64,000 bases of DNA, taken from assembly GCA_005789565.1 (NCBI GenBank), contig SXXL01000004.1, positions 1 to 64,000 of the forward strand. The letters run 5' to 3'. Below are positions 2,492-35,568 of the stretch, piece after piece (position 1 is the stretch's first letter; each line of letters begins with the position of its first letter). The position numbers and the translations under genes were made by a program. The notes under the pieces are model-generated. The model was not told the DNA's origin. It was given only the letters and a program-made list of their open reading frames with translations, and made no database searches. The stretch is from Bacteroidota bacterium (GTDB lineage Bacteria > Bacteroidota > Bacteroidia > Chitinophagales > Chitinophagaceae).

Positions 2492-5400
2492 TTAAAGGTT
2501 GATGGTGAGTTTTCCACTGATGGTACGATACACCGGGTAAGGGTAATACTCGAAGTAACCCTCGGGGTTCACACCGCTGTACTTGGTGAAGTAGAACAGG
2601 TTACGACCGATCAGGGCGATGCGGGCGTTTTTGACCACTTTACCAACCGCACCGAGTTTGTTACCGGCAAGGTTGTAGGCGAGCGACAATTCACGGATGG
2701 CTACGAAGGAATTCTTCTCCAACCAGAAGTTGGTGATGTTGTTTCCGTTGTAGATCTGCTGAATGAACTGCAGGGGCAATCCGCTGGAGATATAGTCCTC
2801 GAACAACTGCGTACGGTTATCGAAGGTGAGGTACTGAATGGTAGAGTTATACTTGTAACCACCCTGCTTCCAGTCTACCAGGAAGAACAAGCTCAACTTG
2901 TTGTCCAAGAAACTGAATGTCTGTGGCAAACCGATCTGGAAATCGGGCTCTCCACGCTGCAGGAAGGCGGTGTTACCGGTGGCGGCATCCACGAAGAATA
3001 CCGGACGCTCGTTGGCGGTACCCATCTTAGCTTTCTCTACTACAAAACCTTTGGAGTTGATGGCAAAGTCGGCGGTGGTCAGGTTACCCGGCACGTTGGT
3101 CACGAAACCGGTTGTCTTGTTAACCTGCAACTCATCCAAGCTGCGCAATACTTTGAAGCCCCAGAAAGCGTAGGCGGAAAGTCCTTCTGCTTTGCGGAAC
3201 AAACCATCATAGGTGAACTCAGGAATACCACCGAGGTCGGTGATCTTGCTGCGCACCAGGGTAAAGGTGAATCCGGTATTCCAGCGAACATTCTTGGTGT
3301 TCATGATGTTCGAGTTCAACTCGGCTTCGATGGAGCGGGATTGAACCGCACCGAGGTTACGCCAGATCAGGGCGGTACCGTTTACCTGCTGGATGGGAGG
3401 CGTTTGGATGAAATCCTTCTGGCTGTTGGCGAAGGCATAGGTCAGGTTGAAGTTCAGGCGGTTGAACACCTGTCCGTCAAATCCGATCTCCACCTCGTCG
3501 GTATAAGAACGAGACAATCCGGGGTTGGCCAACTGGATCAAGCTGATGTTGGTACCCGATACGGAAGTCTGGCTGTTCTTGGCGTTGTAGGGCGGAACCG
3601 AACCGGCGCGACCAAAAGCGGCACGGAATTTCAGTTCGTTGAAGGGGCCCAGCTTGAAATCTTCGGTGAGGCGGTAGGCCGCACTCACGCGGGGGAAGAA
3701 AGCAGACTCTGCTTCCAAACCGAAACGGCTGCTCTGGTCAACACGACCCAAGGCATCGATGAACAATTTATTCTTCCATCCCAAACGGGCATTCAAGAAA
3801 TATCCTTTGTTGATGGTCTTGTTCCAATCCGAGTTCATGGAACGGGTGTCGGGATCGGTTACGGCCAGCTCCTTCAGGGGAACGGTCAGGTTATAACCGG
3901 AAGCCGAGAACGACTCTCCGTTGTATTCCTCATAGATGTACTTAACCGAACCACCATATTCGAAATCACCCTTCGAACCGGAATAGTTCAACTGCACGTT
4001 TCCGTTCAAGAATTTGTTGGTAGACGTACCCATGGAGTAGTTACCATTGTTCAAAGACGCGGTCGGCGTGATCGTCTGGTAACCGATAGGATAGTAGCTC
4101 CAGTTATTGCCGGTCTCTGTGTTCATCGACCCGCTGGCAAAGATGTCGAAGCCTTTGGCAAAGCGCCAGCGGATGTCACCGCCCAACAGAGTGTTGGTCG
4201 CCGTACTGCTCACCTCACGCTGATCCCACTCATAAAGCGGATTGTAGAGGTTGGCATTCTGGAACTCGAAGCCGGTGGGCTTGGCTTTATACGTACCATC
4301 GGGATTCTTCTCGGTCAGATCCATGAACGGCTCGTACTGCAGCGTGGCCGCGAAGAGGGTTCCCTGGGTGTTCCGGGAAATGAAGTCAGAGGGACGAGTA
4401 AAGTTGATGTATTGGAATGTAACGTTGGTCTCGATCTTGTTGGAAGGATTGTACCCGACGTTCACTTTCATAGTGTTCCGGACATCGGCATCGACGATGG
4501 ATACGGCACCCCCGCGACGCTGGTTCTGGAAAGAAACGTAGTACTTCAGCGGACCTTTTGCATCCGACATGGAAACCACATAGTTGCTGAAGGGACGATT
4601 GTCCAACAACGCACGCGTGTTGTCGAAATACTTCTGATAACGATTCATCTTGATCGAGAAACCGTTTGCTTGGTAATCGATCGTACGCTGAAACGGAGAA
4701 GCTGGGTTCGTGATCAAGAAAGAATTGTCAGGATTTACCTTGTAGATGTGCTTATCGGTCAAATCCGGAATACGCTGGATGTTATTGATACCAAACTCCG
4801 CATCAGCTACGATGGTAGGCTTACCACCGGTGGCACGACCTTTCTTGGTGATCACTTGGATAACACCTCCCTCGGCACGGGTACCATACAGGGCCGCACC
4901 GGCTCCACCTTTAACGACTTCGATAGACTCGATGTCCTCCGGGTTCAGATCGCTTAAGCTCAAAGAAGTTTGGAATCCGTCTACCACGATCAGCGGGGCG
5001 ATGTTTCCGAACACGGATTTGGCACCACGCAGAAACACAGCGGCTCCGCGGTCACCCTGCGTTTGACTGATCTGGATACCGGCCACACGACCCCGAAGGG
5101 ACTGAGAGGCATCTAGCTGGGGAACGATGTTGATCTCGCTGCCCTTCACGGTGGTGGCCGCAAACGTCAGCTTCTTCTTGGAAGTAGCTTGTGCTACACC
5201 CGTCACCACAACCTCTCCGATCTCAGCGGTCGCTGATTTCAGGGAGATGGATAAGTTGTTTCCGGATGCTGGCACCTCCATAGTGGTCATGCCCACATAG
5301 GAGATCGCTAATGTCTTTACACCGGCCGGTACGCTCAGCGTAAACTGGCCATTGGCATTGGTGGTGGTAGAAGCATTGGCCCCTTTGGCGGCAACTGTAG

Positions 5401-6629: not shown

Positions 6630-6660
6630 TTGCCCGAACCACCCCTAAATTGTACCTTAG
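6630..6660 (+). promoter_or_regulatory. Promoter-like element of a candidate small RNA
   Basis: TTG at 6630-6632 and TACCTTAG at 6653-6660 are 20 nt apart, the spacing of Bacteroidota promoters. The -7 box has one mismatch to TAnnTTTG. The pair lies about 50 nt upstream of an orphan terminator. Confidence 0.45.
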
Positions 6661-6665
6661 CAGTA

Positions 6666-6719
6666 GAATTTAATGGGTTAGTAAGTTGGGCTGGTCGAAA
6701 GACCGGCCCTTCTTTTTTT
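6666..6719 (+). ncRNA. Candidate small RNA or terminated leader upstream of radA
   Basis: A promoter-like element is followed by about 20 unstructured nucleotides, then a 9-bp hairpin with a GAAA loop and a T run. No gene precedes the terminator on this strand. The unstructured part contains ATGGGTTAGTAAGT (6673-6686), which is perfectly complementary to a 14-mer in the second orphan element upstream of yicC. It may be a free small RNA or a prematurely terminated radA leader. The sequence cannot decide which, and I recognise no Rfam family. Confidence 0.4.
6688..6719 (+). terminator. Strong Rho-independent terminator without an upstream gene
   Basis: GGGCTGGTC (6688-6696), loop GAAA, GACCGGCCC (6701-6709) pair over 9 bp with one G-T wobble, followed by TTCTTTTTTT. 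Confidence 0.8.
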
Positions 6720-6816: not shown

Positions 6817-8187
6817 ATGAGCAAATCGAAAACCGCTTATTTCTGTCAACACTGCGGATATGAATCCGTGAAGTGGCTGGGACAATGTCCCAGTTGCCAA
6901 CAATGGAACAGTTTCCTGGAAGAACCGGTACATAAAGATGACAAGAAGAAAAAGAAATGGAGCGACGATGAAAAACGCATCGGACCCAAAACGATCTCGC
7001 TGAGCGACGTGGAATCCAAACCCGAGCATCGCATTCAATCCCCCGACACCGAACTCAACCGCGTACTGGGTGGCGGCATTGTTACGGGTAGTCTCGTACT
7101 GGTGGCCGGAGAACCCGGGATCGGGAAATCGACCTTGTTCCTGCAAGCGGGACTGCAACTCAAAAATATCCGGGTGCTCTATATCAGCGGCGAAGAATCC
7201 GAACAACAGATCAAAATGCGCGCCGATCGGCTGAAGGCACACAACGAAGATTTTTATCTGCTCACCGAAACCTCGACCGATGAGATCTTTCTCGAGATCA
7301 AACGCATTCGTCCCCAATTGGTGATCGTCGATTCGATTCAAACGCTGCAAACCCCACACATCGATTCTTCTCCCGGCAGTGTTTCGCAGATCAGAGAATG
7401 CGCCGCCGAGTTTCAGCGCTTTGCCAAAGAGTCGAATACGCCGGTGTTCCTGATCGGACACATCACGAAAGACGGCAGCATTGCCGGTCCCAAAGTACTT
7501 GAGCACATGGTCGATACCGTCCTTCAATTTGAAGGCGACCGGCATTATGCCTACCGTATCCTGCGCACCTTGAAGAATCGTTTCGGCAGCACCGCCGAAT
7601 TGGGCATCTATGAGATGAGTGATCAAGGCATGCGCGGCGTACTCAACCCCAGCGAGATCCTGATCACCCAAAAAGAAGAAAACCTCAGTGGTATCGCCAT
7701 CGCCGCCACGTTAGAGGGATTACGGCCGCTGCTGATTGAAGTACAGGCACTCGTCACCCAATCCGTATACGGCACGCCGCAACGAACGGTTTCCGGATTC
7801 GACCTGCGGCGTCTGCAATTGCTGTTGGCCGTGCTGGAAAAAAGAGGTGGCTTCCCCTTTGGCAACAAAGATGTATTTCTGAATATCGCCGGGGGATTGA
7901 AGATCGAAGACCCTTCCACCGACTTGGCCGTGCTTTGTGCGTTGCTCTCGTCGCATGAGGACCAACCCCTCCCCACCTCCATCTGTTTTGCCGGAGAGGT
8001 AGGGCTGAGCGGTGAGATCCGCGCGGTGAACCGCATCGAACAGCGCATCGCCGAAGCAGAGAAACTCGGATTTGAAAAGATCGTCGTCTCCAAATACAAT
8101 CAAAAGAGTCTGGCCAAATCCAAATTCGGCATTGAGATCGTGGCGATGAGTCGGGTCGAAGACCTCTATCGCTACTTGTTTCCCTGA
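6817..8187 (+). CDS. radA: DNA repair protein RadA
   Basis: RadA is a RecA-like ATPase that drives branch migration during recombinational repair. The 456-residue protein shows every family landmark in order: a four-cysteine zinc finger (C10, C13, C24, C27), Walker A GEPGIGKST (98-106), the RadA signature KNRFG (253-257), and a Lon-protease-like C-terminal domain. The ATG at 6817 gives the standard N-terminus immediately before the zinc finger; an upstream in-frame start at 6751 would add residues not seen in the family. Its stop overlaps the comF start as TGATG, so the two are translationally coupled. Confidence 0.97.
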   Translation: MSKSKTAYFCQHCGYESVKWLGQCPSCQQWNSFLEEPVHKDDKKKKKWSDDEKRIGPKTISLSDVESKPEHRIQSPDTELNRVLGGGIVTGSLVLVAGEPGIGKSTLFLQAGLQLKNIRVLYISGEESEQQIKMRADRLKAHNEDFYLLTETSTDEIFLEIKRIRPQLVIVDSIQTLQTPHIDSSPGSVSQIRECAAEFQRFAKESNTPVFLIGHITKDGSIAGPKVLEHMVDTVLQFEGDRHYAYRILRTLKNRFGSTAELGIYEMSDQGMRGVLNPSEILITQKEENLSGIAIAATLEGLRPLLIEVQALVTQSVYGTPQRTVSGFDLRRLQLLLAVLEKRGGFPFGNKDVFLNIAGGLKIEDPSTDLAVLCALLSSHEDQPLPTSICFAGEVGLSGEIRAVNRIEQRIAEAEKLGFEKIVVSKYNQKSLAKSKFGIEIVAMSRVEDLYRYLFP

Positions 8188-22473: not shown

Positions 22474-23535
22474 ATGATCAGAACAGTACTCTATGGGGCA
22501 ATGATGGTGTGGGGATTGACCGCCCAGGCACAATACACGATCACGGGAAGAGTCGTCGATTCGGCCACACAGGAACCTCTCGCCCGGGCCTCCATCTTTT
22601 GCCAAGGCACAACGCTGGGTACCACCACCGACGCAGACGGCTATTTTCAATTGTCGCTGCGCAACGGAGGATACGACCTCACGATCAGCTACGCCGGCTA
22701 TCTGCCCCAGGTATTGCGGGTACAGGAATCCATTAATCGCCCGGTTGCCCTCATAAAAAAGGAGAATGCCCTCACCGAAGTCGTGATCAAAAGCAGCAAC
22801 GAGGTGGCTGACGGATGGGAGAAGTACGGCGACTTTTTTCAAAAACATTTCATCGGCGAATCCAACCTGGCCAAAACCTGTACCCTCCGAAATCCCACCG
22901 CCCTCCGATTTTTATTTTATAAGAAAAGCAACCGACTCAAAGTAGTGGCCGATGAACCCCTGCAACTGGTTCATCCCGCCCTGGGCTATGAGATCCGATA
23001 CCAATTGGACTCATTCGTCTATTACTACAACACCCAATACTTCCTCTACCGAGGATATTCATTCTATACCGAATTGGCAGGTGATGATTCCCTGCGGTCG
23101 GTCTGGAAACGCAACCGAAGCTCCGCCTATGCCGGCTCGCGCTTACAGTTCATGCATAATTATTATGATTCCACCTTGGAGGAGAATGGTTGGGTGATTG
23201 ACCTGCTGAACGAAAACAGTGATTCGAAATTCTCCAAGATCGATCCGTACGACACGACCTACTACGTGGTGGTAGACAGCACCGAAGAGATCGAGATCGA
23301 TTTTCCCCGAAAGATCAGCGTCACCTACAAGAAAAAAGTCCCCGAGCCCGAGTACCTGCGTTCCATGAAACTACCCAAAGGGACACCCTACGAAATAAGC
23401 TATATCGACCTGAAATATTCGATCGTGATCCGTCCCAATGGCTATTTCTACAACCAATCCGATTGGGTCCAACAAGGTTATTGGGTATGGAAAAACGTTG
23501 GCGATCAGCTACCAACCGATTACGAACCAGACTGA
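22474..23535 (+). CDS. Exported protein with carboxypeptidase-regulatory-like domain
   Basis: The 353-residue protein has a signal peptide ending GLTAQAQ and a 75-residue regulatory-like beta-sandwich ([20 protein letters not shown] to ISYAGYLPQ). This is the same domain that begins SusC proteins, but no TonB plug or barrel follows. The remaining 230 residues are rich in Tyr and Asp and I do not recognise them; a DUF5686-like secreted protein is one possibility. Its last 16 bp overlap the convergent lpxD. Confidence 0.7.
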
Positions 23536-24473
23536 CCTTTGAGTTTCTCCCAGATCTGCGGAATACGCTTGATCCACACCAGCTCCCGTTTTTTCTGGGA
23601 AGCCTCTTCTGCCGGATAGCCGAAATAAACCTTTCCACCGGCCAACGACGAGGGAACCCCGCTTTGCGCCAACACCACCGCCCCGGCCCCGATGGTGAGT
23701 GTTTTGCTGACACCCACCTGACCCCATAAGGTAACACCATCCTCAATGATCGTTGCCCCGGCAATCCCCACTTGCGCCGCGATCAAGCAATTCTTTCCGA
23801 TCAACGTATCATGACCCAAATGCACCAGGTTGTCGATCTTGGTGCCCGCCCCGATCCGCGTATCATGCGTAACGCCCCGATCAATCGTGCAATTGGCCCC
23901 GATCTCCACCTCGTCCTCAATGATCACCCGCCCGCAACTGAGCATACGCTCGTAGGGAAGCGATCGGTTGGGGCGCTTGTTGTAATAGAAGGCATCGCTG
24001 CCAATGACGGTACCCGCCTGGATCACTACCCGATCGCCGATCTGCGTACCAGCACCGATCACCACATTGGGATGAATGACACAATCATTGCCGATGATGA
24101 CCCGAGGGCCCACACAAACACCTGACATTAACACCGTACCCGCACCCACCACCGCTGAATCGGCGATCGGTTTCGATATCGGCGCAAACGGCTGATAGGT
24201 GCTAACGATGCGCTGATAAGCAATGAAGGGATCGCTGACCACCAACAGTGATTTCCCCTCGGGAACATCCACCTTCGCATTGATAATGATGTACGTGGCC
24301 GCCGAACGGAGACATTTATCATAATATTTCGGATGATCGACAAAGACCAGATCACCCGACTCTACCCGATGGATCTCATTGATGCCCGTCGCAAACGCCT
24401 GAGCATCGCCGATCAGTTCGGCATCAATGAGCGAAGCGATCTCCGCGAGCGAAATAGGATTTTTGAATCGCAT
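23520..24473 (-). CDS. lpxD: UDP-3-O-(3-hydroxyacyl)glucosamine N-acyltransferase
   Basis: LpxD adds the second hydroxy-fatty acid in lipid A synthesis. The 317-residue protein has the LpxD N-terminal domain (residues 1-100) and then a left-handed beta-helix of hexapeptide repeats from about 105 to 260. The repeats include [26 protein letters not shown], where the His of HLGHD is the presumed catalytic base. The start at 24473 lies 10 nt below a predicted transcription start; an in-frame ATG at 24500 lies upstream of that point. It stands apart from lpxA and fabZ, which are not in the window. Confidence 0.93.
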
Positions 24474-24528: not shown

Positions 24529-24649
24529 AATACGATTGCAAATGCCCAATACGATCATGAAACGCAATACTGCGTTTATCCACAAACCACTAAAAAATGT
24601 GAATAAAAGCAGCTTAAAATTTTTTTGGTTTATTTATTTGGTATAATAT

Positions 24650-24730
24650 TGTGGTGGGGAAACACAGTTTCCCTGTACTTACTAACCCATCCATATATTT
24701 CCCTCCGCTTCTGCGGAGGGATTTTTGTTT
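24650..24730 (+). ncRNA. Candidate small structured RNA upstream of yicC
   Basis: After a TATAATATTG promoter-like stretch come a perfect hairpin (GGGAAAC 24657-24663, loop ACA, GTTTCCC 24667-24673), a single-stranded segment with ACTTACTAACCCAT (24677-24690), and a terminator. No coding sequence fits. The single-stranded 14-mer is exactly complementary to one in the orphan element upstream of radA. It could be a free RNA or a terminated yicC leader. Confidence 0.4.
24701..24730 (+). terminator. Strong Rho-independent terminator before yicC
   Basis: CCCTCCGC (24701-24708), loop TTCT, GCGGAGGG (24713-24720), then ATTTTTGTTT. The 8-bp stem is perfect. Confidence 0.8.
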
Positions 24731-24779: not shown

Positions 24780-25661
24780 ATGACGATGGTACGATCGATG
24801 ACGGGTTTCGGAAGAGCAGAAGGCTCCATTGGGAGAAAGACCTTTTTAATCGATATCAAATCGCTGAATGGAAAACAATTCGACCTGCAGGTACGCCTGC
24901 CGGCCTTGCTGAAACCACAGGAGTTTGAGATCCGTCGGATGCTGAGCGAGGGATTGGTTCGCGGATCCGTGGAATGTATGATCAGCCTCAAAGAGACCGG
25001 GGAGGCCAAGCCCTTCACCATCAACACCGAGCTGGCCAAAGCCTATCATCAACCCTTGGCCGAATTGGCCAGTTCCCTGCAATTGCCGACCGATGACCTC
25101 CTGGGTATATTGGTCAAAATGCCGGAAGTGATCGTGCCCAGCAGCGATACGTTGGGGGGGGCGGACTGGAATGCCTTCCAAGAATTGCTGTCGGAGGCCA
25201 TTCAATCCCTGAATGCACACCGGGAGAACGAAGGCGCGATGCTTCAAGCCGACCTGCTGCAACGCATCGAGCGCATCGAAACCTTGCAACAAGACATCCG
25301 TACCCTGGAGCCTAAGCGCAAACAAAAGATCCGAGAAGGGTTGATCAAGTTACTGGACGAAGAGGTCGGCAAAGAGAAATACGATGCCAACCGAATGGAA
25401 CAGGAACTGATCTATTACATCGAGAAGATTGATATCAGCGAGGAACAGACCCGATTGGCTAACCATTGTCAGTATTTCCGCTCCTTGTTCACGGAAACGG
25501 ATCCCTCCAAGGGTAAAAAGCTCTCGTTTGTACTGCAGGAAATTGGTCGCGAGATTAATACCACGGGGGCCAAGGCCTACGATGCCGAGATCCAACGCTG
25601 TGTGGTGGAAATGAAAGACGAACTGGAAAAGGCCAAGGAACAGATCCTCAACCTGCTCTGA
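24780..25661 (+). CDS. yicC: YicC-family endoribonuclease-like protein
   Basis: YicC proteins are conserved stress-linked RNases; the E. coli member affects decay of the sRNA RyhB. The 293-residue protein begins with the family signature VRSMTGFGRAEG and ends with the DUF1732 block: NRMEQELIYYIEKIDISEEQTRLANH, FRSLFTE, GKKLSFVLQEIGREINTTGAKA. In the family this C-terminal block is the most conserved part. Two starts are possible, at 24780 or 24786; both precede the signature by only a few residues. In many Bacteroidota yicC is next to gmk, but here gmk lies 25 kb away and gldH follows after 19 bp. Confidence 0.93.
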   Translation: MTMVRSMTGFGRAEGSIGRKTFLIDIKSLNGKQFDLQVRLPALLKPQEFEIRRMLSEGLVRGSVECMISLKETGEAKPFTINTELAKAYHQPLAELASSLQLPTDDLLGILVKMPEVIVPSSDTLGGADWNAFQELLSEAIQSLNAHRENEGAMLQADLLQRIERIETLQQDIRTLEPKRKQKIREGLIKLLDEEVGKEKYDANRMEQELIYYIEKIDISEEQTRLANHCQYFRSLFTETDPSKGKKLSFVLQEIGREINTTGAKAYDAEIQRCVVEMKDELEKAKEQILNLL

Positions 25662-35162: not shown

Positions 35163-35165
35163 GGT

Positions 35166-35195
35166 AAATAAAAAAGCTCCGGGTGGACCGGAGCT
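35166..35195 (-). terminator. Terminator-like hairpin between rpmH and rnpA
   Basis: On the minus strand AGCTCCGG, loop TCCAC, CCGGAGCT is followed by six T. The perfect 8-bp stem lies within the operon, so it should reduce read-through into rnpA and yidD rather than end the operon fully. Confidence 0.75.
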
Positions 35196-35223
35196 GTAAA
35201 ATTATTGAATCGGTACCGCCCGA

Positions 35224-35379
35224 TCACTTGAGTTTGCGCTCGTCGGAAACGGTCAGCTTTTTACGGCCTTTGGCACGACGGCTGGCCAATACCTTACGGC
35301 CATTGGCGGTCTGCATCCGTTTGCGGAAACCATGTACGCTCTTGCGGCGTTTGCGGTGCGGTTGGAATGTACGTTTCAT
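35224..35379 (-). CDS. rpmH: 50S ribosomal protein L34
   Basis: The 51-residue protein is read from the minus-strand ATG at 35379: it begins [21 protein letters not shown], then has [21 protein letters not shown] and a short tail. This is the complete, highly basic L34 sequence. It heads the rpmH-rnpA-yidD operon. A -7 box at 35503-35510 predicts a leader of about 117 nt, long for this genome. Confidence 0.97.
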
Positions 35380-35502
35380 TTTTTTCCTGTTCAGTTTTCA
35401 CGTTCGATCCGGCGGATATTCGCGGACCGGCATGGGGCCGGGAGAACGGCTCCGATTGGTTAGCCTGCCGGTCACCACACCTGCAGGTTTGTGAAAGGAG
35501 GG

Positions 35503-35510
35503 CAAAGGTA
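35503..35510 (-). promoter_or_regulatory. -7 promoter box of the rpmH operon
   Basis: TACCTTTG on the minus strand is an exact match. The leader it implies (35380 to about 35497) is GC-rich and could fold. Confidence 0.5.
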
Positions 35511-35568
35511 AGGGTTGTGCGGAAAACTTTAGGCAGTAAACGGGAAAAATCAGCCGAATCTCTGTTTA

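Follow-up and report, generated by a model that had tools for sequence, protein, structure and literature searches.

Two short RNA elements, termed A and B, that carry complementary 14-base stretches have been identified in the window, which is the whole 64-kb stretch of DNA analysed here. Across the Chitinophagaceae the two elements are conserved, as are their terminators and the complementary 14-mer. B is probably a trans-acting small RNA that pairs beside the terminators of a set of DNA-repair and stress transcripts, and the terminated leader of radA (element A) would be a target of B as well as a competitor for it. This proposal draws on the conservation, architecture, complementarity and location of the elements and on one compensatory event.

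Two terminated elements in the window

The features of the two loci are as follows.

6630..6660, + strand: putative promoter of element A, with TTG at 6630-6632, a 20-base spacer and TACCTTAG at 6653-6660, of the Bacteroidetes -33/-7 type
6666..6719, + strand: predicted RNA A of about 54 nt, a single-stranded 5' part and an intrinsic terminator, the terminated radA leader, delimited by alignment and covariance model
6673..6686, + strand: predicted B-binding site ATGGGTTAGTAAGT in RNA A, the exact complement of 24677-24690
6688..6719, + strand: intrinsic terminator of A, with the GC-rich stem GGGCTGGTC/GACCGGCCC and then a T-run
6817..8187, + strand: radA (sms), downstream of A (TIGR00416, 583 bits)
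23520..24473, - strand: lpxD (TIGR01853), divergent, upstream of B in most genera
24625..24651, + strand: putative promoter of element B, with TTG at 24625-24627 and TAATATTG, invariant in the alignment, at 24644-24651
24657..24729, + strand: predicted RNA B of about 73 nt, a 5' hairpin, a single-stranded stretch and a terminator
24657..24673, + strand: 5' hairpin of RNA B, GGGAAAC/GTTTCCC
24677..24690, + strand: ACTTACTAACCCAT, the putative pairing stretch of RNA B, which the predicted fold leaves open; CTTACTAACCCAT is kept in 70 of the 81 distinct B sites
24700..24730, + strand: intrinsic terminator of B, a hairpin and then a T-run, with two-sided changes in 8/8 stem pairs
24780..25661, + strand: yicC (YicC/YloC endoribonuclease, TIGR00255), downstream of B in the source genome and replaced in other genera by a pseudouridine synthase

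The exact 14-base complementarity of ATGGGTTAGTAAGT at 6673-6686 to 24677-24690, both on the plus strand, had been pointed out in a first-pass annotation of this DNA and is confirmed here. When up to two mismatches are allowed these are the only two sites for the 14-mer in the window (0.10 expected), and none of 100 shuffles yielded two such matches. A 14-base match is by itself not significant in 64 kb, and the remaining evidence is comparative. The annotation had described these loci as the only two gaps of more than 300 bp, which is not quite right, since a crude ORF model adds 35163-35568 (406 bases) and one dubious gap. In that model the segment 35163-35568 is a region of about 400 bases with no called ORF of at least 90 aa. 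Rfam, the look-up of which had been recommended for both elements, gave no match at the gathering threshold within the window; there were weak sub-threshold hits alone, and those to FopS and GcvB lie below the respective cut-offs.

The claim that both 14-mers lie outside hairpins holds well for B, in which the predicted fold consists of a 5' hairpin, an open stretch and the terminator, with pairing probabilities of at most 0.05 over the 14-mer. It holds in part for A, in which most of the first ten bases are left unpaired and the final few are able to pair with the T-run. In a predicted co-fold of A and B the three hairpins persist and 14 pairs form in addition, at -68.7 kcal/mol against -50.0 for the separate RNAs, a gain of 18.7; the energy of the plain duplex (-29.5) lies about 1.6 s.d. 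below the mean of shuffled B and is moderately unusual. A divergent lpxD is found upstream of B in most loci. The gene that follows B varies: among the loci with a callable ORF, 36 have yicC and 26 a pseudouridine synthase, whose name rests on its sequence rather than on a family search. B therefore fits an independent RNA gene better than the leader of one gene. B-like paralogues with a terminator also occur in three genomes (L412, L306 and L309 in G207, G224 and G134).

Element A had been regarded as an orphan segment with no gene ahead of it, a description that does not stand, since radA begins on the same strand at 6817 and follows A in that orientation in 165 of the 169 distinct sites for which enough downstream sequence is available. 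Between the core and the ATG of radA the median distance is 157 (range 41 to 567), and 23 A sites have the ATG no more than 30 nt from the T-run. On its other side A usually has a divergent gene, so that transcription of radA should pass the terminator of A in the genomes with such short gaps. Judged from this gene order A is a leader of radA that would, if terminated, give an RNA of about 54 nt; with a putative promoter of its own and an intrinsic terminator in the 5' leader of a conserved gene, it has the features of leader-derived small RNAs of the GraL/UpsM type. Second A-type elements away from radA are seen at L346, L348, L414 and L335, and in some of these the terminator differs and a promoter-like TATTTG box is present. 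The reading of the motif as a mini-ORF (ATG GGT TAG TAA) was discarded, the ATG not being kept in the recA sites described below.

The position of A before radA also admits a mainly cis-acting role, in which GGGUUAG would pair with the 3' arm of the terminator as a radA attenuator, B or some other signal would shift the balance and sites in other genes would be secondary. The 3' arm can pair with GGGUUAG at six or more of the seven positions in 187 of 199 A sites and in 10 of 37 other sites, an enrichment that is not independent evidence, since the stems share ancestry and wobble-mediated evolution keeps the purine and pyrimidine classes. That radA begins right after the T-run in several lineages is also consistent with attenuation. 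The terminator hairpin is, however, the predicted stable fold, and the recA sites are left unexplained, so that we consider a chiefly cis-acting A to be quite improbable and favour B as a regulator acting in trans.

Conservation across the Chitinophagaceae

BLAST queries of 111 bases for A and 141 bases for B detected A in 32 and B in 34 of the 35 genomes of the source genus, and gave no convincing match outside it. The 14-mers are among the most conserved stretches of the genus alignments, in which the flanks and the terminator stems vary; GAATTTAATGGGTTAGTAAG in A and GTACTTA.TAACCC in B are invariant. Covariance models extended the search to 35 sampled Chitinophagaceae genomes, of which about 33 contain A and all 35 contain B, and the -7 region TAAYTTAG of A and its TTTTG-type -33 region are conserved in the family. 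One covariance hit for A, in G218, was judged not to be real. The other families of the order gave weak covariance hits alone, without the core sequence, save for one possible A-like hit, in G110.

Among named genomes TTTAATGGGTTAGTAAGTA was located in Chitinophaga, Niabella, Terrimonas, Sediminibacterium, Segetibacter, Flavihumibacter, Puia and Ferruginibacter, among others, which identifies the family as the Chitinophagaceae. The exact 13-mer is present in 71 of 78 genera, each represented by one genome, mostly in 2-3 copies (range mostly 1-4), and the reversed pattern occurs 0-1 times per strand in the same 78 genomes. Loss of the 14-mer from relatives that keep the terminators, which had been named beforehand as evidence against a link between the elements, is thus not the case.

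The comparison of both elements by covariance across the family, which had also been called for, shows that the terminator stems change by compensation. For the terminator of A two-sided changes are found in 10/10 stem pairs over 87 sequences, and 98.1% of cells are paired (80.7% in shuffles); the model of B has such changes in 12/15 pairs, with 94.4% of cells paired against 68.9% in shuffles; the alignments were fitted to the models, so that these counts lean towards the model, and slid controls are far lower.

A chance match between two unrelated terminated leaders was considered, since 14-mer matches do arise by chance in a 64-kb window. The family-wide conservation of both copies, with the 14-mer as their most conserved part, together with its recurrence in the 3'UTRs of recA, makes the probability of this explanation negligible, and we have rejected it on the conservation. 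The earlier estimate that the match is unlikely to be fortuitous is thus borne out.

A-type sites in 3'UTRs and a compensatory change in recA

The A-type motif is also identified between the stop codon and the terminator of recA, of a bacilliredoxin (YphP/YqiW, TIGR04191) and of a primary-sigma-type factor (rpoD). At least 11 of 13 positions match in the 3' flanks of recA in 25 of 49 genomes; in the same 49, shuffled motifs match this well in 0.27 on average (maximum 8), the reversed motif in 1 and the motif in the opposite orientation in none. In most recA sites the terminator stem starts within 10 bases of the motif. About 37% of the recA 3' flanks have no clear site (scores 7-9), and the recA of the genome from which the window derives is cut at a contig end.

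The bacilliredoxin and rpoD sites are found in some genomes. Those of bacilliredoxin lie before the terminator at L302, L313, L315-L317, L381, L385, L394 and L403, and some bacilliredoxin sites stand behind a promoter-like TAnnTTAG/TAnnTTTG. The genome of the window itself has an A-type site after the stop codon of a primary-sigma-type factor (L305:339-352, contig C73), as does its sister G013, and at L391 the site overlaps the end of a homologue of that factor. At L413, near 1045 on the minus strand, a 346-aa ORF has at its end a perfect inverted repeat, GTAATGTACG...CGTACATTAC, with the 13-mer in the loop. The suggestion that A and B are two interacting small RNAs or leaders agrees with the sequences in that the elements, the terminators and the 14-mer are kept, and fails in so far as it implies a private pair, since the sites recur in 3'UTRs; the distribution of the sites points to a network centred on B.

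A change at one position of the 14-mer bears on the partner of B. All six species of the G213 genus have CTTACTAACACAT in B, a change of C to A. The corresponding recA 3'UTRs carry TGTGTTAGTAAAT (G213, G287), AGTGTTAGTAAAT (G288), TGTGTTAGTAAGT (G289) and, with one extra T, GTGTTTAGTAAGT (G290, G291). The recA base opposite the changed position of B is T, in exact register in four of the six species (G213, G287, G288 and G289); the other recA sites examined have G at this position, or A in one, and never T. The pair is thereby restored, and this is a compensatory change between B and recA; the changed position is paired in all 19 genomes of a table compiled by hand from the sequences. Read from the sequences, the recA compensation is one evolutionary event.

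RNA A behaves differently. In the same six species (L480-L484, L098) it reads ATGAGTTAGTAAGT, which gives an A.A mismatch with B, and no compensatory change between A and B was found on searching, the one genus with changes being that with the mismatch. A, B and recA have thus all departed at the same position, and only B and recA remain matched; RNA A in this genus may have another partner, or the mismatch may be tolerated. Elsewhere most substitutions in B keep a G-U pair (G263, G238, G246, G017, G030, G237), and those that break a pair are in G247 and, at its end, in G231. The 14-mer is so nearly invariant that most of its positions offer no test of compensation. B has what is expected of the sequence of a base-pairing small RNA, namely a conserved stretch, predicted to be unpaired, that is complementary to several transcripts, with one event of co-variation, which involves recA and not RNA A.

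An invariant motif that adjoins terminators could instead be the binding site of an RNA- or DNA-binding protein, the complement in B being incidental or a decoy, and the joint departure of A, B and recA in the G213 genus could likewise result from a relaxed protein contact. The complement, however, sits on the RNA strand of B itself, so that B would present a different motif to an RNA-binding protein; the motif has one orientation relative to transcription, just 5' of the terminator, which is odd for a DNA operator; and the new base restores a Watson-Crick pair with B, in register, in four of the six recA sites. A protein site is for these reasons considered improbable.

A predicted RNA circuit and its relation to known systems

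The small RNAs nearest in architecture to RNA A are the FopS RNAs of Bacteroides (RF04319), which consist of a single-stranded 5' seed followed by a Rho-independent terminator and repress the translation of SusC-like transporters (PMC11697453). RNA A shares this layout according to its fold and covariation, and further similarities lie in the Bacteroidota hosts, the housekeeping-type promoter and the presence of multiple copies in some genomes. RNA A scores 18.3 bits (E 0.84) against the FopS model, for which the gathering cut-off is 56 bits. In contrast to FopS, A is the leader of radA, and no target comparable to the SusC-like transporters was found here.

Two near-identical contigs of the IMG/VR collection, L505 (132 kb) and L506 (66 kb), contain AATTTAATGGGTTAGTAAGTA and, after it, a terminator hairpin (positions 2070-2088 and 3127-3145, respectively). 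No long ORF runs across this intergenic copy of the A module, which is possibly a phage-borne mimic. The neighbouring ORFs have few PHROG matches, one of them to the ferrochelatase family, and the viral label is plausible and rests on the collection. A shorter pattern has 22 other viral matches, each of them within an ORF or lacking a terminator. Viral copies of the B stretch were discarded, those found being devoid of the B architecture.

The FopS-like open seed and terminator of A could also mean that the roles are reversed, with A as the regulator, the 3'UTR copies releasing further RNAs of the same seed and B acting as an antagonist or sponge that titrates the A family. This would accord with the near invariance of GAATTTAATGGGTTAGTAAGTA, the 5' part of A, beyond the stretch that pairs with B, with the larger number of A-type copies than of B and with the copy in the phage contigs. 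We regard it as unlikely, since the recA sites track the changes in B and not those in A, and, beyond B itself and a few of its paralogues, no conserved target with a B-type stretch was found.

With B as the regulator, the model predicts transcription of both elements, pairing in the cell, a direction of regulation and an outcome. The 5' hairpin and the terminator of B would hold the 14-nt single-stranded stretch open, and this stretch would pair in trans with the site ATGGGTTAGTAAGT, which an intrinsic terminator hairpin follows after a few bases. The usual product of the A promoter would be the terminated RNA, read-through giving the radA mRNA, and B bound to the radA leader could shift the ratio of the two. 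On the recA, bacilliredoxin and rpoD mRNAs B could alter the stability of the 3' end. By acting on termination efficiency or stability at terminators or 3' ends, B would in this manner regulate DNA-repair and stress transcripts together, and the short RNA A would compete with the mRNAs for B. A fuller version, in which a family-wide small RNA guides terminator efficiency, or RNA stability there, through a common 5' site and so coordinates radA, recA and other stress genes, with the radA leader as a built-in competitor and phages carrying a mimic of that leader, is put forward as a tentative and still doubtful proposal.

Among known systems, GraL, a small RNA from the greA leader (PMC6829880), and UpsM, from the dcw leader (PMC5089854), are similar in that a terminator in a 5' leader gives a short RNA, read-through gives the mRNA and the short RNA can act in trans. 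RNA A differs from them in having a dedicated and conserved complementary RNA, B, and in the recurrence of the same site in the 3'UTRs of other genes. Small-RNA sponges, for example that of Vibrio cholerae (PMC9732341), are likewise based on the pairing of a small RNA with a short RNA or transcript fragment, whereas the A/B pairing site lies directly before the intrinsic terminators of DNA-repair and stress genes throughout the family, and no RNA chaperone partner was identified here. In the literature searched we found no paper that describes the A/B pair or the control of recA or radA by small RNAs in the Bacteroidota, and no dedicated small RNA that controls recA and radA post-transcriptionally.

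Little is known of the small RNAs of non-gut Bacteroidota, and the A/B pair seems to form a so far undescribed RNA circuit with a link to DNA repair. The location of the pairing site beside terminators suggests a mode of action other than the start-codon blocking that is usual. Within the family, including the cultured Chitinophaga, Niabella, Terrimonas and Sediminibacterium, the pair hardly varies and is therefore directly testable in these organisms.
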